Assembly: GCA_001793895.1 (NCBI GenBank)
Contig: MGIT01000001.1
Coordinates: 214,059 to 247,472, forward strand
From: Candidatus Wolfebacteria bacterium RIFOXYB1_FULL_54_12
Lineage (GTDB): Bacteria > Patescibacteriota > Minisyncoccia > UBA6257 > UBA9933
Length of the DNA stretch: 33,414 nt
Reading direction: 5' to 3'
The notes beneath the pieces are model-generated. The model worked only from the letters and a program-made list of their open reading frames with translations. It made no database searches and was not told the origin of the DNA. Positions 5,399-30,542 of the stretch are shown here, piece by piece. A program made the translations under genes and the position numbers. Each line of letters opens with the position of its first letter. Within the stretch, counting starts at the first letter, position 1.

Positions 5399-6159
5399 AC
5401 GACTCTACCCATAACACGACAATGCTACAAGAATTCTATAAAAAACCTATCCTCTCGGGCATCGTAATCGCGGCGATCATCCATAGTATTGCGATCCTCA
5501 CGCGCGAACTGTCGCCTACTCCCGTGTTTCCCGTCATCATCAACGCGCTCGCATTTAACGGTTCGTGGATCTATATGGCATGCGTCGGATTGATGCTCAT
5601 CATCAATGCAAAAAAGGTAGGGGATTTCTTCACGTGCATACCGCAAAGGGTGGGCGCGAAAACGATCGAAGGACAGAAGCTGGTGCTCGGATACGAATTC
5701 ATATCCTTGTTCATATTACTATTCGCATTTCCGGCAATCACCTATTTCTACGGGCAGGTCGAACACTATTTCGCCGCACAACATCCCGAGTTGCACCGTT
5801 TTATCGATTACATGCCGTTTACCGATCTGATCAACCGTGCCATGACGTCGTTTCCGTTCTTTATCACACTGTTTGTCCTTGTGAGTCTGATTTGTGTCAT
5901 TGCCCCGCACACCTACTTCGCATACAAATGTGCAAAACGATCGACCGATCCGCTCCATTCGGCAATCGGGTTCAGCATCCTACTGTCGACGATCGTAATG
6001 GGAATCGTATTCGAATTAGTGTTCTTGAATATCGAATCATGGATGGCCATTGCGCTCATCGCAACCGGCCCGGTGGTTCTCATATCGCTCATCATCATAA
6101 ACATCATGATGTTGCGCTATCACAACAAATTCATCCTCTGCGATGAACTGAGCGATTAA
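5395..6159 (+). CDS. Hypothetical multi-spanning membrane protein, partner of the preceding gene
   Basis: Not recognised. The 254-aa sequence has about six hydrophobic stretches, among them ILSGIVIAAIIHSIAIL, FISLFILLFAFPAITYF, FFITLFVLVSLICVIA, GFSILLSTIVMGIVFELVFL and IALIATGPVVLISLIII. A short positively charged loop (CIPQRVGAKTIEGQK) lies between helices 2 and 3. The start overlaps the upstream stop (ATGA), defining a two-gene operon that ends at a very long perfect hairpin (6158-6209). No signal peptide, enzyme motif or transporter signature is visible. Confidence 0.75.
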   Translation: MNDSTHNTTMLQEFYKKPILSGIVIAAIIHSIAILTRELSPTPVFPVIINALAFNGSWIYMACVGLMLIINAKKVGDFFTCIPQRVGAKTIEGQKLVLGYEFISLFILLFAFPAITYFYGQVEHYFAAQHPELHRFIDYMPFTDLINRAMTSFPFFITLFVLVSLICVIAPHTYFAYKCAKRSTDPLHSAIGFSILLSTIVMGIVFELVFLNIESWMAIALIATGPVVLISLIIINIMMLRYHNKFILCDELSD

Positions 6160-6209
6160 AAAACCGTACGTCCGTCCGCCAGTTGGCGGACGGACGTACG
6201 GTTTTTTAT
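6158..6209. terminator. Bidirectional terminator between convergent genes
   Basis: Perfect 23-base arms (6158-6180 and 6185-6207) around the loop AGTT, with six A on one side and six T on the other. It can end both the membrane-protein operon and the pseudouridine synthase gene. It overlaps the upstream TAA and ends just before the rluF stop. Confidence 0.93.
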
Positions 6210-11045: not shown

Positions 11046-12224
11046 TTACTTCTTTCTTCCCTTTCCTTTTTTCTCGCGCAACGCTTCGATACCGGGCAAT
11101 TTGATCCCCGACAAATACTCCAACATCGCCCCGCCACCCGTCGAAAGAAACGTGTTCTTTTTCAGCGGGATGCCCGCAAAGGCAAGCGCCGTTTCGCCGC
11201 CGCCCACCACGGAAAACGCCTTGCTTTTTGCAATTGCCTGCGCAATGGCGATGGAGCCCTTGGCAAATTTTTTGTTTTCGATAACTCCCACCGGACCATT
11301 CCAAATGATCGTCTTCGCATTTTTTATGATCTCAACCCATTCGTCCGTAGTCCCCGCTCCATTATCTACAATCTTTCGTTCAGAAATGACGACGTCCATC
11401 GGCACGATGACCTTGTTCGTTTTTATGATCTTTTTTGCAACGGGGATCATGTGCGCTTCGTAAATGGAATCGCCGATCGGCAGACCATCGGCCGCAAAAA
11501 ATGTATTGGCCACACCGCCTCCCGCAAGGAAATAATCAGCCTTGCCGATGAACCGTTTGATTAGGCCCATCTTGTCGGTCATTTTTGCGCCACCCAAAAT
11601 GACCACGAGTGGATGCTTATAGTTATTGATGGCTTCGTCCATATGAAACACTTCCCTTTCCAATAGAAGCCCTGCACACGACGGCAACAGCTTGGTGATG
11701 GCAACAACCGAAGCATTCTTGCGATGACTAACGGCAAATGCGTCATTCACATAAAACGTACCCAGCTCCGCAAGCGGACGCACAACAGCGGAATCGTTCT
11801 TTTCTTCACCGGCAAAGAACCGCATGTTCTCGAGCAGAAACACAGACCCATTCGGCGCCTTCCTGATCTTCTCGGCGCTCGCATCCGAAAACAACCGATA
11901 TTCTTTCGTATCGTGCGGAATAAACGTAACGTCTTTCTTCAGCAATCCGCCAAGTATCTTCGCAAACGGCTTGAGCCCGAATTCTTTTATGTTATTGGTT
12001 ATCGGTTGTCGGTTATCGGTTACGCCCGCAGGGCGACCCCGATGGCTGACCAGCACGACTTTCGCGCCGCGCTTCGTTAAAAAACGAATCGTCGGGACGA
12101 TAGAGGTTACGCGCAAATGAGACCCGTTTGCACGCAAGGTCTTGTTGTTGATATTCAGATCGATGCGAACGATGACGATCTCTTCGGAAAGATTCCGATC
12201 GTACAATGCGGAAAGGTTTTTCAT
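11046..12224 (-). CDS. pgk: Phosphoglycerate kinase
   Basis: Glycolytic enzyme converting 1,3-bisphosphoglycerate and ADP to 3-phosphoglycerate and ATP. Visible family motifs: VIVRIDLNI (canonical RVDLNVP, here without the Pro), VVLVSHRGRP, FLLENMRFF, FYVNDAFAVSHR, LVVILGGAKMTDKMGLI, the ADP-binding segment and the C-terminal hinge VVGGGETALAF plus LSTGGGAMLEYL. At 392 aa it is near normal length. Residues ~68-77 (TDNRQPITNN) are encoded by a heptad repeat and expand the loop after SHRGRP; the family normally passes straight to the LKPVA helix here (LKPFA). Gene starts three bases after the stop of the upstream membrane-anchored gene, indicating an operon. Confidence 0.95.
   Translation of the reverse strand: MKNLSALYDRNLSEEIVIVRIDLNINNKTLRANGSHLRVTSIVPTIRFLTKRGAKVVLVSHRGRPAGVTDNRQPITNNIKEFGLKPFAKILGGLLKKDVTFIPHDTKEYRLFSDASAEKIRKAPNGSVFLLENMRFFAGEEKNDSAVVRPLAELGTFYVNDAFAVSHRKNASVVAITKLLPSCAGLLLEREVFHMDEAINNYKHPLVVILGGAKMTDKMGLIKRFIGKADYFLAGGGVANTFFAADGLPIGDSIYEAHMIPVAKKIIKTNKVIVPMDVVISERKIVDNGAGTTDEWVEIIKNAKTIIWNGPVGVIENKKFAKGSIAIAQAIAKSKAFSVVGGGETALAFAGIPLKKNTFLSTGGGAMLEYLSGIKLPGIEALREKKGKGRKK
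11991..12022. repeat. Heptanucleotide repeat inside the pgk reading frame
   Basis: Plus strand is GTTATTG GTTATCG GTTGTCG GTTATCG GTTA, the same 7-mers as at 13141-13266. It is translated on the minus strand as TDNRQPITNN. Confidence 0.85.
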
Positions 12225-15039: not shown

Positions 15040-15215
15040 TTTCTGCCATACCGGCTCTTTGGCGGATCCAGCCGGTATCCGGAGAACATGGAACTGGATT
15101 CCGGCTCGGAGGCCGGAATGACAATACGGGGAGTGTGTCATACCGGCGGGTGAGGGCCTGTCCTCGACCTGATCGGGGACCGGTATCCAGAGAGGCGAGA
15201 ATCTTACCCCACTCC
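15040..15215. repeat. Intergenic palindromic repeats
   Basis: CATACCGGCTC...CCGGTATCC and GGATTCCGGCTC...GCCGGAATGACA, followed by GTCATACCGGCGGG...CCGGTATCC. These are variants of the TGTCAT-type repeat. No gene is visible between polX and the pyrE-pyrF fusion. Confidence 0.7.
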
Positions 15216-15230
15216 CCGCTATCAAACCCA

Positions 15231-15257
15231 ATATAACATCATCGCAAGATGTTATAT
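15231..15257. repeat. ATCGCAA-loop hairpin a
   Basis: Ten-base arms ATATAACATC / GATGTTATAT around the loop ATCGCAA. First of a local series sharing the loop but not the arm sequence. Confidence 0.75.
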
Positions 15258-15278
15258 TTAAACCAAAACCTGCCACAC

Positions 15279-15307
15279 TTTACATTTCTAAAATTGTATG
15301 GCATAAG
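15279..15307 (+). promoter_or_regulatory. Possible promoter of the pyrE-pyrF gene
   Basis: TTTACA at 15279-15284, 17-bp spacer ending in TGG, then CATAAG. The -10 is weak; low confidence. Confidence 0.3.
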
Positions 15308-15345
15308 TAATCCAGTACCCAACAACAATTTTTATCAAAAAATAC

Positions 15346-15351
15346 AGGAGG
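15346..15351 (+). promoter_or_regulatory. Strong Shine-Dalgarno AGGAGG
   Basis: AGGAGG eight bases before GTG 15360 fixes the non-ATG start. Such a site is rare in this window. Confidence 0.85.
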
Positions 15352-15359
15352 AATAACGA

Positions 15360-16700
15360 GTGAAAGACATCGCAAGCGTATTGTTTAGCCCCAGCTTTCC
15401 GACAGGCCATTTCTTGGACCCGTCGGAACAGGAGCAACTCGTGGCAGGCCTCGCCTACTACGGACTGCTTAAACTGTCCAACGCACGGGATCTGCCCCTG
15501 AAAAAGGGCGGCTTCACGGACATCTACATCAACATCCGTGATTCCCGCAACCACTGGGAGGCCGTCGCGTTCCTCGCCGATCTCTATGCCCCGGCAATGA
15601 AACGCCTGAGGGTAGACTGCTTTGCGGACATACCCCAGGCGGTAAGCCATCTAGCCGGTTCCATAGCCGAGCGCACTCGCCTGCGCATGATTACAATCCG
15701 TGAGCAAGCAAAGGAAGGGCGCGCGACGAAAGGGCTCATCATCGGCAATGTAAAGCCGAGCGATCGGGTTGCGATTTTCGATGATGTCATCACCGATGGC
15801 GGCTCAAAGGCTGCCCCCTACTTCGCACTCTCTGCGATGGGCATCATGCCGTATTTGATCGTCATGGTAGACCGGCAACAGGGCTGGCAGCAAAAGTTCG
15901 CTCAGCTCGGCATCAACATGCCCGTCTGGTCCGCCACCGATCTGCACACCGTCCGTCGTCATGTCATCGACACCTTCGGACTTATGCAACGCTGTGACCA
16001 CGAGATGGAAGAAAAAAACCCGTTCATCGTTTCGCTCGACGGCAAACCGTGGGAGGAAATTCTCCCGATCATCGATGTGCTTCGGCCGTCAGGCTCGATC
16101 TTCAAGATCAACGACCTGTTGCACGACCAAAATCGCACGCACATCGTCCGCGATGTCGGCGTCTACGGCAAGGTCATGGTCGACTTCAAAGGCCACGACA
16201 TTCCGGAAACCGTATACAACTCCTGCATGCGTTATCGGGAGCACCCACCATGGGCGGTCACCGTGCATGCAAGCGGGAATGGCGAAATGGTCCGCGCTGC
16301 TATGAAGGCATTCATGGGCACGCCCACCAAGGTGTTGGCCGTCACGGCGCTCACCTCGCTGAGCGACAACGACTGCAAAACGATCTATGGACACAAACGC
16401 CCCCGTACGGTAAAGCATTTGGCATCCATCGCCAGCGAAGACGGCGGCTGTCACGGCTTTGTCTGTTCGGGAAAGGAAGTGAGTGCGCTTCACTCGATTT
16501 TCCCCGGCCGGACATTCGTCGTCCCCGGAACGCGTTCGCCCGGTGCAGAGGCACATGACCAGAAAAACGTTGTCACCCATGCCGAAGCGCTGAAAAACGG
16601 AGCGACGCACCTCGTCGCCGGCCGCCAATTCCTGCGCGCCCCCGATCCGGTAGCCGAACTCAAGCGCGTCATGACCGAAGAACTCGGCATCGCGCTCTGA
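15360..16700 (+). CDS. Fused orotate phosphoribosyltransferase / OMP decarboxylase (PyrE-PyrF)
   Basis: Bifunctional UMP synthase-like protein making UMP from orotate and PRPP. Residues 1-~210 are PyrE: KGGFTDIYINIRD and the PRPP loop VAIFDDVITDGGSK. Residues ~220-446 are PyrF: FIVSLDGK, the catalytic D-K-x-x-D tetrad in MVDFKGHDIPETV, TVHASGN, VTALTSL, VPGTRSPGAEAHDQ and the phosphate site HLVAGRQFLRAPDPVAEL. The PyrE-first order is that of animal and plant UMPS. It starts at GTG after AGGAGG and uses more GC-ending codons than its neighbours, followed by its own terminator. Together this suggests acquisition by transfer (inference). No other pyrimidine gene is in the window. Confidence 0.93.
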   Translation: MKDIASVLFSPSFPTGHFLDPSEQEQLVAGLAYYGLLKLSNARDLPLKKGGFTDIYINIRDSRNHWEAVAFLADLYAPAMKRLRVDCFADIPQAVSHLAGSIAERTRLRMITIREQAKEGRATKGLIIGNVKPSDRVAIFDDVITDGGSKAAPYFALSAMGIMPYLIVMVDRQQGWQQKFAQLGINMPVWSATDLHTVRRHVIDTFGLMQRCDHEMEEKNPFIVSLDGKPWEEILPIIDVLRPSGSIFKINDLLHDQNRTHIVRDVGVYGKVMVDFKGHDIPETVYNSCMRYREHPPWAVTVHASGNGEMVRAAMKAFMGTPTKVLAVTALTSLSDNDCKTIYGHKRPRTVKHLASIASEDGGCHGFVCSGKEVSALHSIFPGRTFVVPGTRSPGAEAHDQKNVVTHAEALKNGATHLVAGRQFLRAPDPVAELKRVMTEELGIAL

Positions 16701-16724
16701 CCGACCTCCGTCCCCTTTTTTGAT

Positions 16725-16759
16725 AAAACCCCCGACTCGCAAGAGTCGGGGGTTTTTAT
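16725..16759 (+). terminator. Terminator of the pyrE-pyrF gene
   Basis: ACCCCCGACTC paired with GAGTCGGGGGT, loop GCAA, followed by TTTTTATT. Confidence 0.93.
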
Positions 16760-16772
16760 TCCCTCCATCATA

Positions 16773-16799
16773 TATGTACGTCATCAGATGACGTACATA
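16773..16799. repeat. Palindrome b
   Basis: Thirteen-base arms TATGTACGTCATC / GATGACGTACATA around a single A. The centre GTCATCAGATGAC resembles the GTCATCGCAAGAC core of the neighbouring hairpins. Confidence 0.75.
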
Positions 16800-16826
16800 A
16801 TATGGATCCCCCGATTTAGCTAATCC

Positions 16827-16872
16827 TAAATTGTTACAATATTTCGCGACCGCGAAATATTGTAACAATTTA
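16827..16872. repeat. Palindrome c (22-bp arms)
   Basis: Perfect 22-base arms, ending inward in ATTTCGCG and CGCGAAAT, around AC. It is the longest perfect palindrome of the cluster. Flanking sequence 16873-16965 holds nothing else I can assign. Confidence 0.85.
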
Positions 16873-16969
16873 CCCCCCCCTGATTTGAATGTCATTACCA
16901 CAAAGAATGGGTCATGAAAAGCGGCGACTTTCTTTACGCGGGCGGGAATCCATCACCTATTAACACAAT

Positions 16970-16990
16970 TTCCGTCATCGCAAGACGGAA
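16970..16990. repeat. ATCGCAA-loop hairpin d
   Basis: TTCCGTC / GACGGAA around ATCGCAA, immediately upstream (plus) of the 41-bp terminator block. Confidence 0.7.
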
Positions 16991-17003
16991 TATTAAATAC
17001 GCT

Positions 17004-17044
17004 AACAAAAACCCCAGCGGACCTTTCGGCTGACTGGGGCGTTT
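17004..17044 (-). terminator. 41-bp terminator block, copy 1
   Basis: On the minus strand CCCCAG...CTGGGG with an inner CAGC/GCTG pairing is followed by TTTTTGTT. Identical over 41 bases to 18469-18509. It would end the Fic-gene transcript and the small ORF at 17051. Confidence 0.8.
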
Positions 17045-17050
17045 CTATCC

Positions 17051-17173
17051 TTAATATACCGAATATATTTGCGTCATCGCAAGACGCAAATATTTTACAC
17101 CCCAAAATGATCCCCGATTCGGCCCTGGCAGTATTTCGATCATTGCATCAATTGTGCAGCAGGTGGAATTCAT
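17051..17173 (-). CDS. Small ORF (40 aa), conserved with 19548-19607
   Basis: Starts 32 bases after the Fic stop. Its N-terminal part MNSTCCTIDAMIEILP aligns with MHPTYHTIEAMIEMLP at 19607. In the shared part several third-position changes are silent (GCA/GCG, GAA/GAG, CCA/CCG) and replacements are conservative (Asp/Glu, Ile/Met), which suggests selection on the peptide. After residue 16 the two differ, and this copy reads through hairpin e. It could be a small protein or a truncated remnant of a larger gene. No strong Shine-Dalgarno. Confidence 0.4.
   Translation of the reverse strand: MNSTCCTIDAMIEILPGPNRGSFWGVKYLRLAMTQIYSVY
17065..17093. repeat. ATCGCAA-loop hairpin e
   Basis: Eleven-base arms ATATTTGCGTC / GACGCAAATAT around ATCGCAA, inside the small ORF. 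Confidence 0.75.
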
Positions 17174-17205
17174 AGATCCAAAAAAATAATAGAATGCATA
17201 TATTT

Positions 17206-18273
17206 TTAAGAAGCTCTAAAGTAATTATTGACCGCAAATTCAAACTGTTCAATAAATAATTTTTTGAAGTACGAGAGATTATTCCTCTCATAAAACAATA
17301 TAACAGCTTTCTTGTATTCAATCTCGTCAACACTTCGATACGAAAGTGGGCAAAGGTCATACGCCAACAGTACGGCATTTGACATTAACCGGCTCGTACG
17401 CTTATTTCCATCTTCAAATGGCTGTATGTAAGCGATAAGCAACGACAGAAGGAGGGCCTTCCCAAACGGATCCGTCTCATTATTTACTTCGATGCACGCT
17501 TGCTCAAGCGCCTCCCTTATTTGAAATTCATTATCCAATGGGCGATACGCAGTACCGACTATACCAACTGGCATTTTTCGTACATTCGGAGAAATCCCAA
17601 GATTCTTAGTGAGTAGGCGATGCACATGCTCAATATCTCGAACAGAAATCGTCCTAAACGCTTGTTTATTTTTCACAATATAATCAAGCGTGGTCTTATG
17701 ATTTAATATCATAATAGCTTCTTCCTTCTTATGCCCGCTCGCTTCCTTATGTTCTTTGATAAGAGCTTCCGTTTCCAAAAGATTATATGTATTGCCTTCT
17801 ATCTGCGAAGATTTCCAGCTTAGCTCTATGGTCAATCGTTCAAATTCCCGAGCTATGGATCGATCCGCAAGTTGTTCGATGTTGTCCTGATAGACCTTAT
17901 TAAGCTTATGCAAATGGAATAGCTCGTCTTCATAGAGTGGGTCGTGTACCAATGGAAATAAGGCAAGATTAAAACGTAACTGAGCCTCCCGCTTATCCGC
18001 CTCTTTTTTAAAATAGTGGTCGACATCTATTTTTTGCAAAAGACTATATCGCCCCGATATTGCATATGTGATTGCGCGCCCACTCCCTCCCCGCTCGATC
18101 AGCCCAAGACGCAATAACGCATTCAGGTCTCGATTAACTGTTACTTTCGCTATTTCGCCGAATTGTTTTTGTATCACGCCGACTATTTCCGAAATGCCCA
18201 AATACCCCCTGTCTTGCAACAGGTTTATGATAAAATCTTGACGCTTGTTCAGTTTCTGCCCAATATTTTTCAT
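17206..18273 (-). CDS. Fic-domain protein with N-terminal winged helix; catalytic His replaced by Gln
   Basis: Fic proteins transfer AMP or other nucleotide moieties to target proteins. Residues 1-~75 form a winged helix-turn-helix (VTVNRDLNALLRLGLIERGG), probably DNA-binding. Residue 155 starts the self-inhibitory motif SSQIEGN (class II, N-terminal helix), with Glu159 expected to block ATP. The Fic core is IQPFEDGNKRTSRL. The first residue of the H-P-F-x-D/E-G-N signature is Gln284 (CAG, 17422-17424) instead of the catalytic His, while Phe, Asp, Gly, Asn and Arg are kept. The protein may bind nucleotide but not AMPylate. The promoter region holds repeated ATCGTATCA sites, suggesting autoregulation. 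AT-rich relative to neighbours. Ends 32 bases before the small ORF. Confidence 0.88.
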   Translation of the reverse strand: MKNIGQKLNKRQDFIINLLQDRGYLGISEIVGVIQKQFGEIAKVTVNRDLNALLRLGLIERGGSGRAITYAISGRYSLLQKIDVDHYFKKEADKREAQLRFNLALFPLVHDPLYEDELFHLHKLNKVYQDNIEQLADRSIAREFERLTIELSWKSSQIEGNTYNLLETEALIKEHKEASGHKKEEAIMILNHKTTLDYIVKNKQAFRTISVRDIEHVHRLLTKNLGISPNVRKMPVGIVGTAYRPLDNEFQIREALEQACIEVNNETDPFGKALLLSLLIAYIQPFEDGNKRTSRLMSNAVLLAYDLCPLSYRSVDEIEYKKAVILFYERNNLSYFKKLFIEQFEFAVNNYFRAS

Positions 18274-18279
18274 ATATTT

Positions 18280-18323
18280 ATCGTATCATTTTTATACTAA
18301 AATCGTATCATTTTTGATACGAT
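18280..18323. promoter_or_regulatory. Probable operator of the Fic gene
   Basis: A 22-bp palindrome, ATCGTATCA-TTTT-TGATACGAT (18302-18323), plus a direct repeat of its left 14 bases at 18280-18293, exactly 22 bp away (two helical turns). It covers the likely -10 (TATAAA) and lies 7-50 bases before the ATG. The protein's own wHTH is the obvious ligand (inference). Confidence 0.7.
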
Positions 18324-18351
18324 TTCGCAACTCTCGCGTACCGCTTTATAA

Positions 18352-18380
18352 AATGTAACGATGTCTGACGTCGTTACATT
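18352..18380. repeat. Palindrome f
   Basis: AATGTAACGATGTC / GACGTCGTTACATT around T, with one T-G pair. Its outer arms match those of hairpin g. Confidence 0.7.
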
Positions 18381-18433
18381 GCATCATATTCCCGTCATCT
18401 CAAGGAGGAGATAGCACGCATCATGGAAATCAA

Positions 18434-18464
18434 AAATGTAACGTCTTGCGATGACGTTACATTT
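18434..18464. repeat. ATCGCAA-loop hairpin g (loop inverted)
   Basis: Twelve-base arms AAATGTAACGTC / GACGTTACATTT around TTGCGAT, the complement of ATCGCAA. Directly precedes the second 41-bp terminator block. Confidence 0.75.
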
Positions 18465-18468
18465 ACCG

Positions 18469-18509
18469 AACAAAAACCCCAGCGGACCTTTCGGCTGACT
18501 GGGGCGTTT
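18469..18509 (-). terminator. 41-bp terminator block, copy 2
   Basis: Same 41 bases as 17004-17044; minus strand stem CCCCAG/CTGGGG then TTTTTG. It overlaps the kinase stop by two bases, so it terminates the Nudix-kinase operon. Confidence 0.85.
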
Positions 18510-30433: not shown

Positions 30434-30532
30434 CCCATAACCAATAACGGAAGGCAAAAAGTAAGGCGCGTTGTCATTCCTGCGAAAGCAGGAATCTTCG
30501 GCGATGCAGATTCCTGCTTTCGCAGGAATGAC
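30412..30532. repeat. Heptad block plus TGTCATTCC palindrome
   Basis: 30412-30450 is a degenerate ATAACCN heptad run. 30473-30532 is TGTCATTCCTGCGAAAGCAG...CTGCTTTCGCAGGAATGACA, a full-length perfect inverted pair with a central CTTCGGCGATG. Confidence 0.8.
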
Positions 30533-30542
30533 AAAAACACCC

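Follow-up and report, generated by a model that had tools for sequence, protein, structure and literature searches.

Seven palindromes lie around pyrEF and the fic gene, which encodes a helix-turn-helix (HTH)-Fic protein (17206-18273), in a 33,414-nucleotide stretch of the Candidatus Wolfebacteria bacterium RIFOXYB1_FULL_54_12 genome, hereafter called the window. These hairpins, and the Y1/HUH transposase genes with which hairpins of the same kind are associated in this genome and its relatives, are the subject of this report. A preliminary description of the window had reported four perfectly paired hairpins with the common loop ATCGCAA, together with three further palindromes at 16773, 16827 and 18352, and all seven were found where it had placed them, the four hairpins having the form GTC/ATC-ATCGCAA-GAC/GAT:

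15230..15258, plus strand, ATCGCAA-loop hairpin with the 11-bp stem AATATAACATC, in the gap between a polX-like gene and pyrEF
16773..16799, no strand, perfect palindrome TATGTACGTCATC-A-GATGACGTACATA with 13-bp arms, a solo copy of the family of the Y1 gene C1:301674-302402
16827..16872, no strand, 46-bp palindrome with a CGACCG apex and 22-bp arms, assigned to no transposase and of uncertain membership
16970..16990, plus strand, ATCGCAA-loop hairpin with the 7-bp stem TTCCGTC
17065..17093, plus strand, ATCGCAA-loop hairpin with the 11-bp stem ATATTTGCGTC
18352..18380, no strand, near-perfect palindrome AATGTAACGATGTC-T-GACGTCGTTACATT (13 of 14 pairs), a solo copy of the family of the Y1 gene C4:60722-61516
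18434..18464, minus strand (loop on the minus strand), ATCGCAA-loop hairpin with the 12-bp stem AAATGTAACGTC

The loops of the four ATCGCAA hairpins are located at 15241, 16977, 17076 and, on the minus strand, 18446, between perfect arms of 11, 7, 11 and 12 bp. At one mismatch or fewer, RTCATCGCAAGAY has five matches in the window against 0.34 expected, a number that none of 100 shuffles reached; the fifth match, at 11716, carries one mismatch (GTCATCGCAAGAA), and the GTC/GAC pairing is broken there. Our palindrome census, which covered the window and individual genome stretches, counted 17 window palindromes whose arms reach 10 bp or more, compared to 0-1 in Markov shuffles. Folding of all seven palindromes as single-stranded DNA (ssDNA) is far above that of shuffled sequence, with z-scores of -4.3 to -11.5. 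The Rfam scan of the window returned tRNAs and no other RNA family above the gathering score. The seven had been proposed to form a single family, but they comprise at least three hairpin families: the four ATCGCAA hairpins form one, a sister family is represented by 16773 and another by 18352, and 16827 is left without assignment.

The ATCGCAA hairpins were also thought to be local, and this view did not survive a search of the window's own genome (G000; 825 kb, 98% complete). The exact 13-mer core occurs 10 times, against one occurrence of a reversed-pattern control and ~0.1 expected by our arithmetic. Only four of these copies fall inside the studied interval and six lie elsewhere, beside unrelated genes throughout the genome; the supposed link to pyrE-pyrF and fic is not supported. 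Paired arms of 6-13 bp are present at all 10 copies; thus, neither a loop frequency expected by chance nor unpaired arms, either of which would have spoken against the family, was observed. The genome copies fall into stem classes (AATGTAAC, ATATTTGC, (A)TTTCC and AATATAAC-ATC) arranged round one common apex. When 40 relatives were screened with the query CGTCATCGCAAGACG, copies were detected in all three other members of the genus and in three members of its family; G034, which belongs to another family of the same order, has seven. Stems vary through paired substitutions, as in ATATTTGC.GCAAATAT in the window versus ATATTTAC.GTAAATAT in G020 and G034, and the arms are therefore held in pairing. 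The hairpin at 17065 differs by one base pair from the ATATTTACGTC hairpins of the same two genomes.

In G034, the GTC-ATCGCAA-GAC hairpin is found directly past the stop codon, in frame inside, and directly before the start codon of a 224-aa Y1/HUH gene (G034:C15), and the genome has four solo copies of the exact hairpin in addition. This gene represents the cognate type of transposase gene for hairpins with the ATCGCAA loop. The window's own genome contains four PF01797 (Y1, HUH) genes, of which three belong to one clade, encode proteins that are 65-68% identical, and each have a palindrome set of their own:

C1:40617-41324, Y1 gene with the hairpin GAGCGACAT..ATGTCGCTC
C1:301674-302402, Y1 gene with the hairpin TATGTACGTCATC..GATGACGTACATA, the family of 16773
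C4:60722-61516, Y1 gene with the hairpin AATGTAACGACGTC..GACGTCGTTACATT at and inside the gene, the family of 18352

Of the 12 genomic sites of the ATGTAC hairpin (the 16773 family), three are at the Y1 gene of that family and nine are solo copies. Taken together, the hairpin that flanks and sits inside the G034 gene and the sister families flanking Y1 genes of G000 bear out the linkage to a Y1/REP-type transposase (REP, repetitive extragenic palindrome) that the preliminary description had suggested testing.

This architecture recurs among Y1 open reading frames (ORFs) of the order. Palindromes reaching a score of at least 8 were present at the 5' place in 41, within the ORF in 30, and at the 3' place in 45 of the 63 ORFs of a first sample, compared to one ORF when a control stretch of each was scored. 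The 5', in-ORF and 3' hairpins matched one another in 23 cases and two matching hairpins were present in 21 more, so that 44 of 63 have at least two. The median identity over the central 19 bases was 0.947 within elements versus 0.526 between elements. The 5' copies directly precede the start codon, and the in-ORF copies occupy a fixed place, mostly preceding the HUH codons by 60-96 nt; in L098 and L108 the copy is instead at +226. The pattern was repeated in a further sample, which comprised 80 named loci, most of them from Parcubacteria-type metagenome-assembled genomes, and overlapped the first in part (at least 568 candidates were listed): matching hairpins were present at 56 loci, 40 of them with an in-ORF copy, and at one in the control. 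The elements are of a known kind, a Y1 enzyme gene accompanied by palindromes, and their unusual feature is the in-frame hairpin that precedes the HUH codons; we found no description of such a system in the literature searched.

ATCGCAA or a close variant forms the apex in 11 elements of the 63-ORF sample. The loop appears fixed and the stems free because this apex recurs across elements with very different stems. Apex type clusters weakly on the protein tree (21 changes versus 26.3 with shuffled labels). In the elements with an asymmetric apex (L128, L086, L106 and L095), the in-ORF copy reads ATCGCAA in the coding direction, and the copy at the 5' place is reversed; the in-ORF orientation could be forced by coding alone, because the opposite orientation holds TGA in one frame.

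The enzyme is assigned to Y1_Tnp by its PF01797 matches, and its AlphaFold model (pLDDT 84) has an HUH fold. A fold search returned 4er8, TnpA-REP with its REP hairpin, as the top match (E 4e-6), followed by the IS608 and ISDra2 enzymes; a sequence search of the PDB gave no match. Judged by its motifs only (NHYH, LFQG/LFEG and YIHLNP), the protein would fit subclass 2.1 of Quentin 2018 (PMC6006769). In that study, subclass 2.1 had yielded no REP-like structures, and in-gene REPs were reported in subclass 2.4, generally between HuH and Y. In the AlphaFold model, residues 48-57 form a low-confidence loop that lies after the first helix and before the second strand, and this loop overlaps the stretch encoded by the in-gene hairpin. 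It is conceivable, if unlikely, that the in-gene copy and the 5' and 3' copies are rewritten jointly, so that the recognition site and the surface loop of its recogniser change in step. If true, such a self-encoded specificity switch would explain the fast divergence of hairpin families while the enzymes remain alike.

Comparison with G003, which is syntenic with the window at ~90% identity, revealed turnover of the hairpins. The hairpin at 16970 is kept at the orthologous place and the palindrome at 16773 is without a counterpart. At 15230 no hairpin is present in the corresponding G003 gap, which is not alignable. The hairpin at 17065 is absent from the syntenic G003 place between alignable flanks, the sole usable empty-site comparison. 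At 16827 the G003 arms are different yet fully paired, around the same apex. Elsewhere, the same place holds different hairpins in G000 and G003: at C4:818, ATGTACGTC-ATCAGAT-GACGTACAT against ATGTACGCC-TTCGCAA-GGCGTACAT, and at C4:5073, a TTTTCC hairpin against a TGTAAC hairpin. Such differences at syntenic sites would fit exchange or re-insertion. In pairs of Y1 orthologues with 91% and 87.5% identity, the hairpin family is unchanged.

We conclude, with a probability of roughly 0.83, that the window hairpins are REP-like solo copies of an ssDNA hairpin recognized by a Patescibacteria clade of Y1/HUH transposases of the IS200/TnpA-REP type. On the basis of association, fold and dispersal, the best reading is a functional likeness to a REPtron or TIRtron with solo REP-like hairpins. 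Among the options offered earlier (a cruciform, a folded ssDNA site or a recombination site), the evidence supports the folded ssDNA site of a Y1/REP-type enzyme. The Y1 gene is framed by its own palindrome before the start and after the stop, in many members with a third copy in frame. We infer binding, cleavage, strand and mobility in trans as follows. The palindrome would fold when the DNA is single-stranded, as on the lagging strand; the enzyme would bind the apex and stem of the folded palindrome and may then nick nearby DNA via its tyrosine. By copying or moving hairpins in trans, it could leave solo copies in intergenic gaps.

Several observations weigh against this interpretation. No conserved guide or cleavage tetranucleotide was found beside the hairpins, unlike in REPs and IS200/IS605, and 10-12 copies per genome is a low number for REPs. 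The window itself has no Y1 gene, and Pfam and family-profile searches of the surrounding genome detected no Y1 gene flanked by ATCGCAA hairpins; hence, the four ATCGCAA copies either remain from an enzyme since lost or are used as substrates by one of its three close relatives in the genome. The fourth Y1 gene of this genome (C1:204.7k), from another clade, has no hairpin set. The four hairpin-bearing proteins score 32-37 bits with NF047646, the NCBIfam model for REP-associated tyrosine transposases with a cut-off of 80 bits, and the other-clade protein, at 72.6 bits, is likewise below it. Lastly, the G003 synteny comparisons revealed no clean insertion bearing a target-site signature, and because the intergenic gaps are repeat mosaics, movement is read from turnover only.

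The intergenic location of the hairpins near gene ends would also be expected of intrinsic terminators or mRNA-end stabilizing hairpins that share sequence by accident, and weak T-rich tails are present, on the minus strand only, at two of the four ATCGCAA hairpins. However, the four do not combine a GC-rich stem with a T run: their stems are AT-rich and the T run is inconsistent. Moreover, ordinary terminator-like hairpins adjoin them, one at 16725-16756 and another as the 41-bp repeat (17004 and 18469), and termination explains neither the fixed loop nor the matching copies on both sides of Y1 genes and within them. The earlier remark that consistent T runs are lacking thus needs the qualification of these weak tails; termination is nevertheless rejected as the main explanation, and we consider this alternative very improbable. 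Somewhat less so, although still improbable, is a role mainly at the RNA level, in which the 5' hairpin hides the start of the transposase mRNA, the in-ORF hairpin causes stalling, and the solo copies are by-products of this autoregulation. IS200 mRNA is regulated by a 5' hairpin, and the 5' copies that adjoin the start codon and the in-ORF copies at their fixed place agree with this model. An RNA role alone does not account for the 3' copies outside the ORF or the dispersed solo copies, and it is compatible with the transposase-recognition reading rather than exclusive of it.

We give hardly any weight to the possibility that the palindromes are operators of a DNA-binding regulator such as the HTH-Fic protein. 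The palindromes do lie near fic, the Fic protein has an N-terminal DeoR-like HTH, and fic has an operator-like palindrome of its own at 18300-18325, but the hairpins occur beside unrelated genes throughout the genome, their fixed apex and variable stems are unlike a duplex operator, and G003 has a hairpin at the locus although fic is missing there. Equally hard to credit is a protein-free origin in which the palindromes are sequence-neutral and template-switch repair of quasi-palindromes keeps them perfect. This process would suit 16827, where the arms differ between G000 and G003 with full pairing and apex retained, but it cannot yield three matching copies at fixed places of Y1 genes or matching solo copies in the genome. 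Integron sites of the attC type were considered, but their GTTRRRY core does not fit.

Several neighbouring features were recorded. Directly upstream of the HTH-Fic gene, 18281-18325 contains operator-like repeats ATCGTATCA and the palindrome AAATCGTATCATTTTTGATACGATTT, through which the gene is probably autoregulated. A perfect, terminator-like 41-bp direct repeat (AACAAAAACCCCAGCGG..) lies on either side of fic (17004-17044 and 18469-18509). At this locus in G003, fic is missing and the repeat occurs only once, so that the fic segment resembles a cassette that was inserted or deleted. Two ATATTTAC-GTCATCGCAAGAC-type hairpins enclose a MntA/HepT-like toxin-antitoxin pair, possibly cargo of the hairpin system, at L131 4464-5290 (G011:C6) and L130 3106-3943 (G020:C8); at L131 the hairpins are within 118-bp direct repeats of 86% identity. 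An identical AAAAATAACGACATCGTAAGTCGTTATTTTT hairpin is present at G000:C4:7316-7346 and G003:C3:102730-102760 in a 281-bp stretch of 100% identity with less conserved surroundings. The CGACCG apex of 16827-16872 is common to a second very long perfect palindrome at G000:C4:36885-36934 (L068), the arms being 22-24 bp, and neither is assigned to an enzyme. A perfect 52-bp palindrome with GTCCGCCAGTTGGCGGAC is located at 6157-6208 of the window, and short TCCGCCAGCTGGCGGA palindromes are repeated in other genome stretches.

The proposed system points to active or recently active ssDNA-processing elements in Patescibacteria, a group with reduced genomes not commonly associated with REP systems, and it accounts for a class of unannotated perfect palindromes in these genomes. 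The element-specific sets of matched hairpins constitute a natural data set on how HUH enzymes read hairpins, by apex versus stem, and on the coevolution of enzyme and site.

The hairpins are not canonical REPs, because they have no GTAG foot; they are not IS200/IS605, because there is no multi-copy element; and they are not CGTC REPs. IS200/IS605 elements share the Y1 enzyme and hairpins near both ends, but here no near-identical multi-copy element exists and guide/cleavage tetranucleotides were not recognized. CGTC-tagged REPs/dRS3 (Di Nocera 2013; PMC3733652) are likewise small CGTC palindromes, and dRS3-like copies occur in the same gaps. Membership was rejected, since CGTC is paired inside the stem here and there is no unpaired end tag; furthermore, a transposase is present for these hairpins, whereas Di Nocera 2013 found none for CGTC REPs. 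Repeats resembling dRS3/CGTC-1 were observed in the window as a head-to-head dimer of TGTC-ATTCCTGC..GCAGGAAT at 30471-30534 and as further fragments at 15048-15208, and similar repeats occupy many intergenic gaps of the genus.

Closer parallels are found among the REP/RAYT (TnpA-REP) REPtrons (Nunvar 2010, PMC2817692; Quentin 2018). These share a Y1/HUH enzyme with its own palindromes at both gene ends, an arrangement that the ATCGCAA hairpin shows in G034 and the sister families show in the genome studied here. Solo palindromes elsewhere, dispersed and mostly extragenic, several enzyme-specific families per genome, and a predicted fold nearest to REP-bound 4er8 are further likenesses. The present hairpins differ in being perfect palindromes with ~10 copies rather than hundreds, the enzyme motifs (NHYH, LFQG, YIHLNP) are different, and inspection of the listed flanks revealed no GTAG/GTGG tetranucleotide at the 5' foot. 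Subclass 2.4 tnpA-REP genes (Quentin 2018) similarly have an in-frame palindrome copy, situated in a variable outer loop, but in the present genes the insert mostly precedes HuH and has a constant position between helix 1 and strand 2. The GGGGWSAS motif, which many TIRs have in common although it is not universal in TIRYTs either, was not seen on inspection of the listed hairpins of either Y1 sample. TIRYTs/TIRtrons (Di Nocera 2013), which by motifs are subclass 2.1 of Quentin 2018, resemble the present elements in that inverted repeats specific to each element, some of them self-complementary and dispersed in the genome, enclose a Y1 gene, and they share the motifs NH[YF]H, FQ and Y[IV]HLNP and a protein of ~225-265 aa; in the elements described here, by contrast, each repeat is itself a hairpin and a third copy lies in frame.

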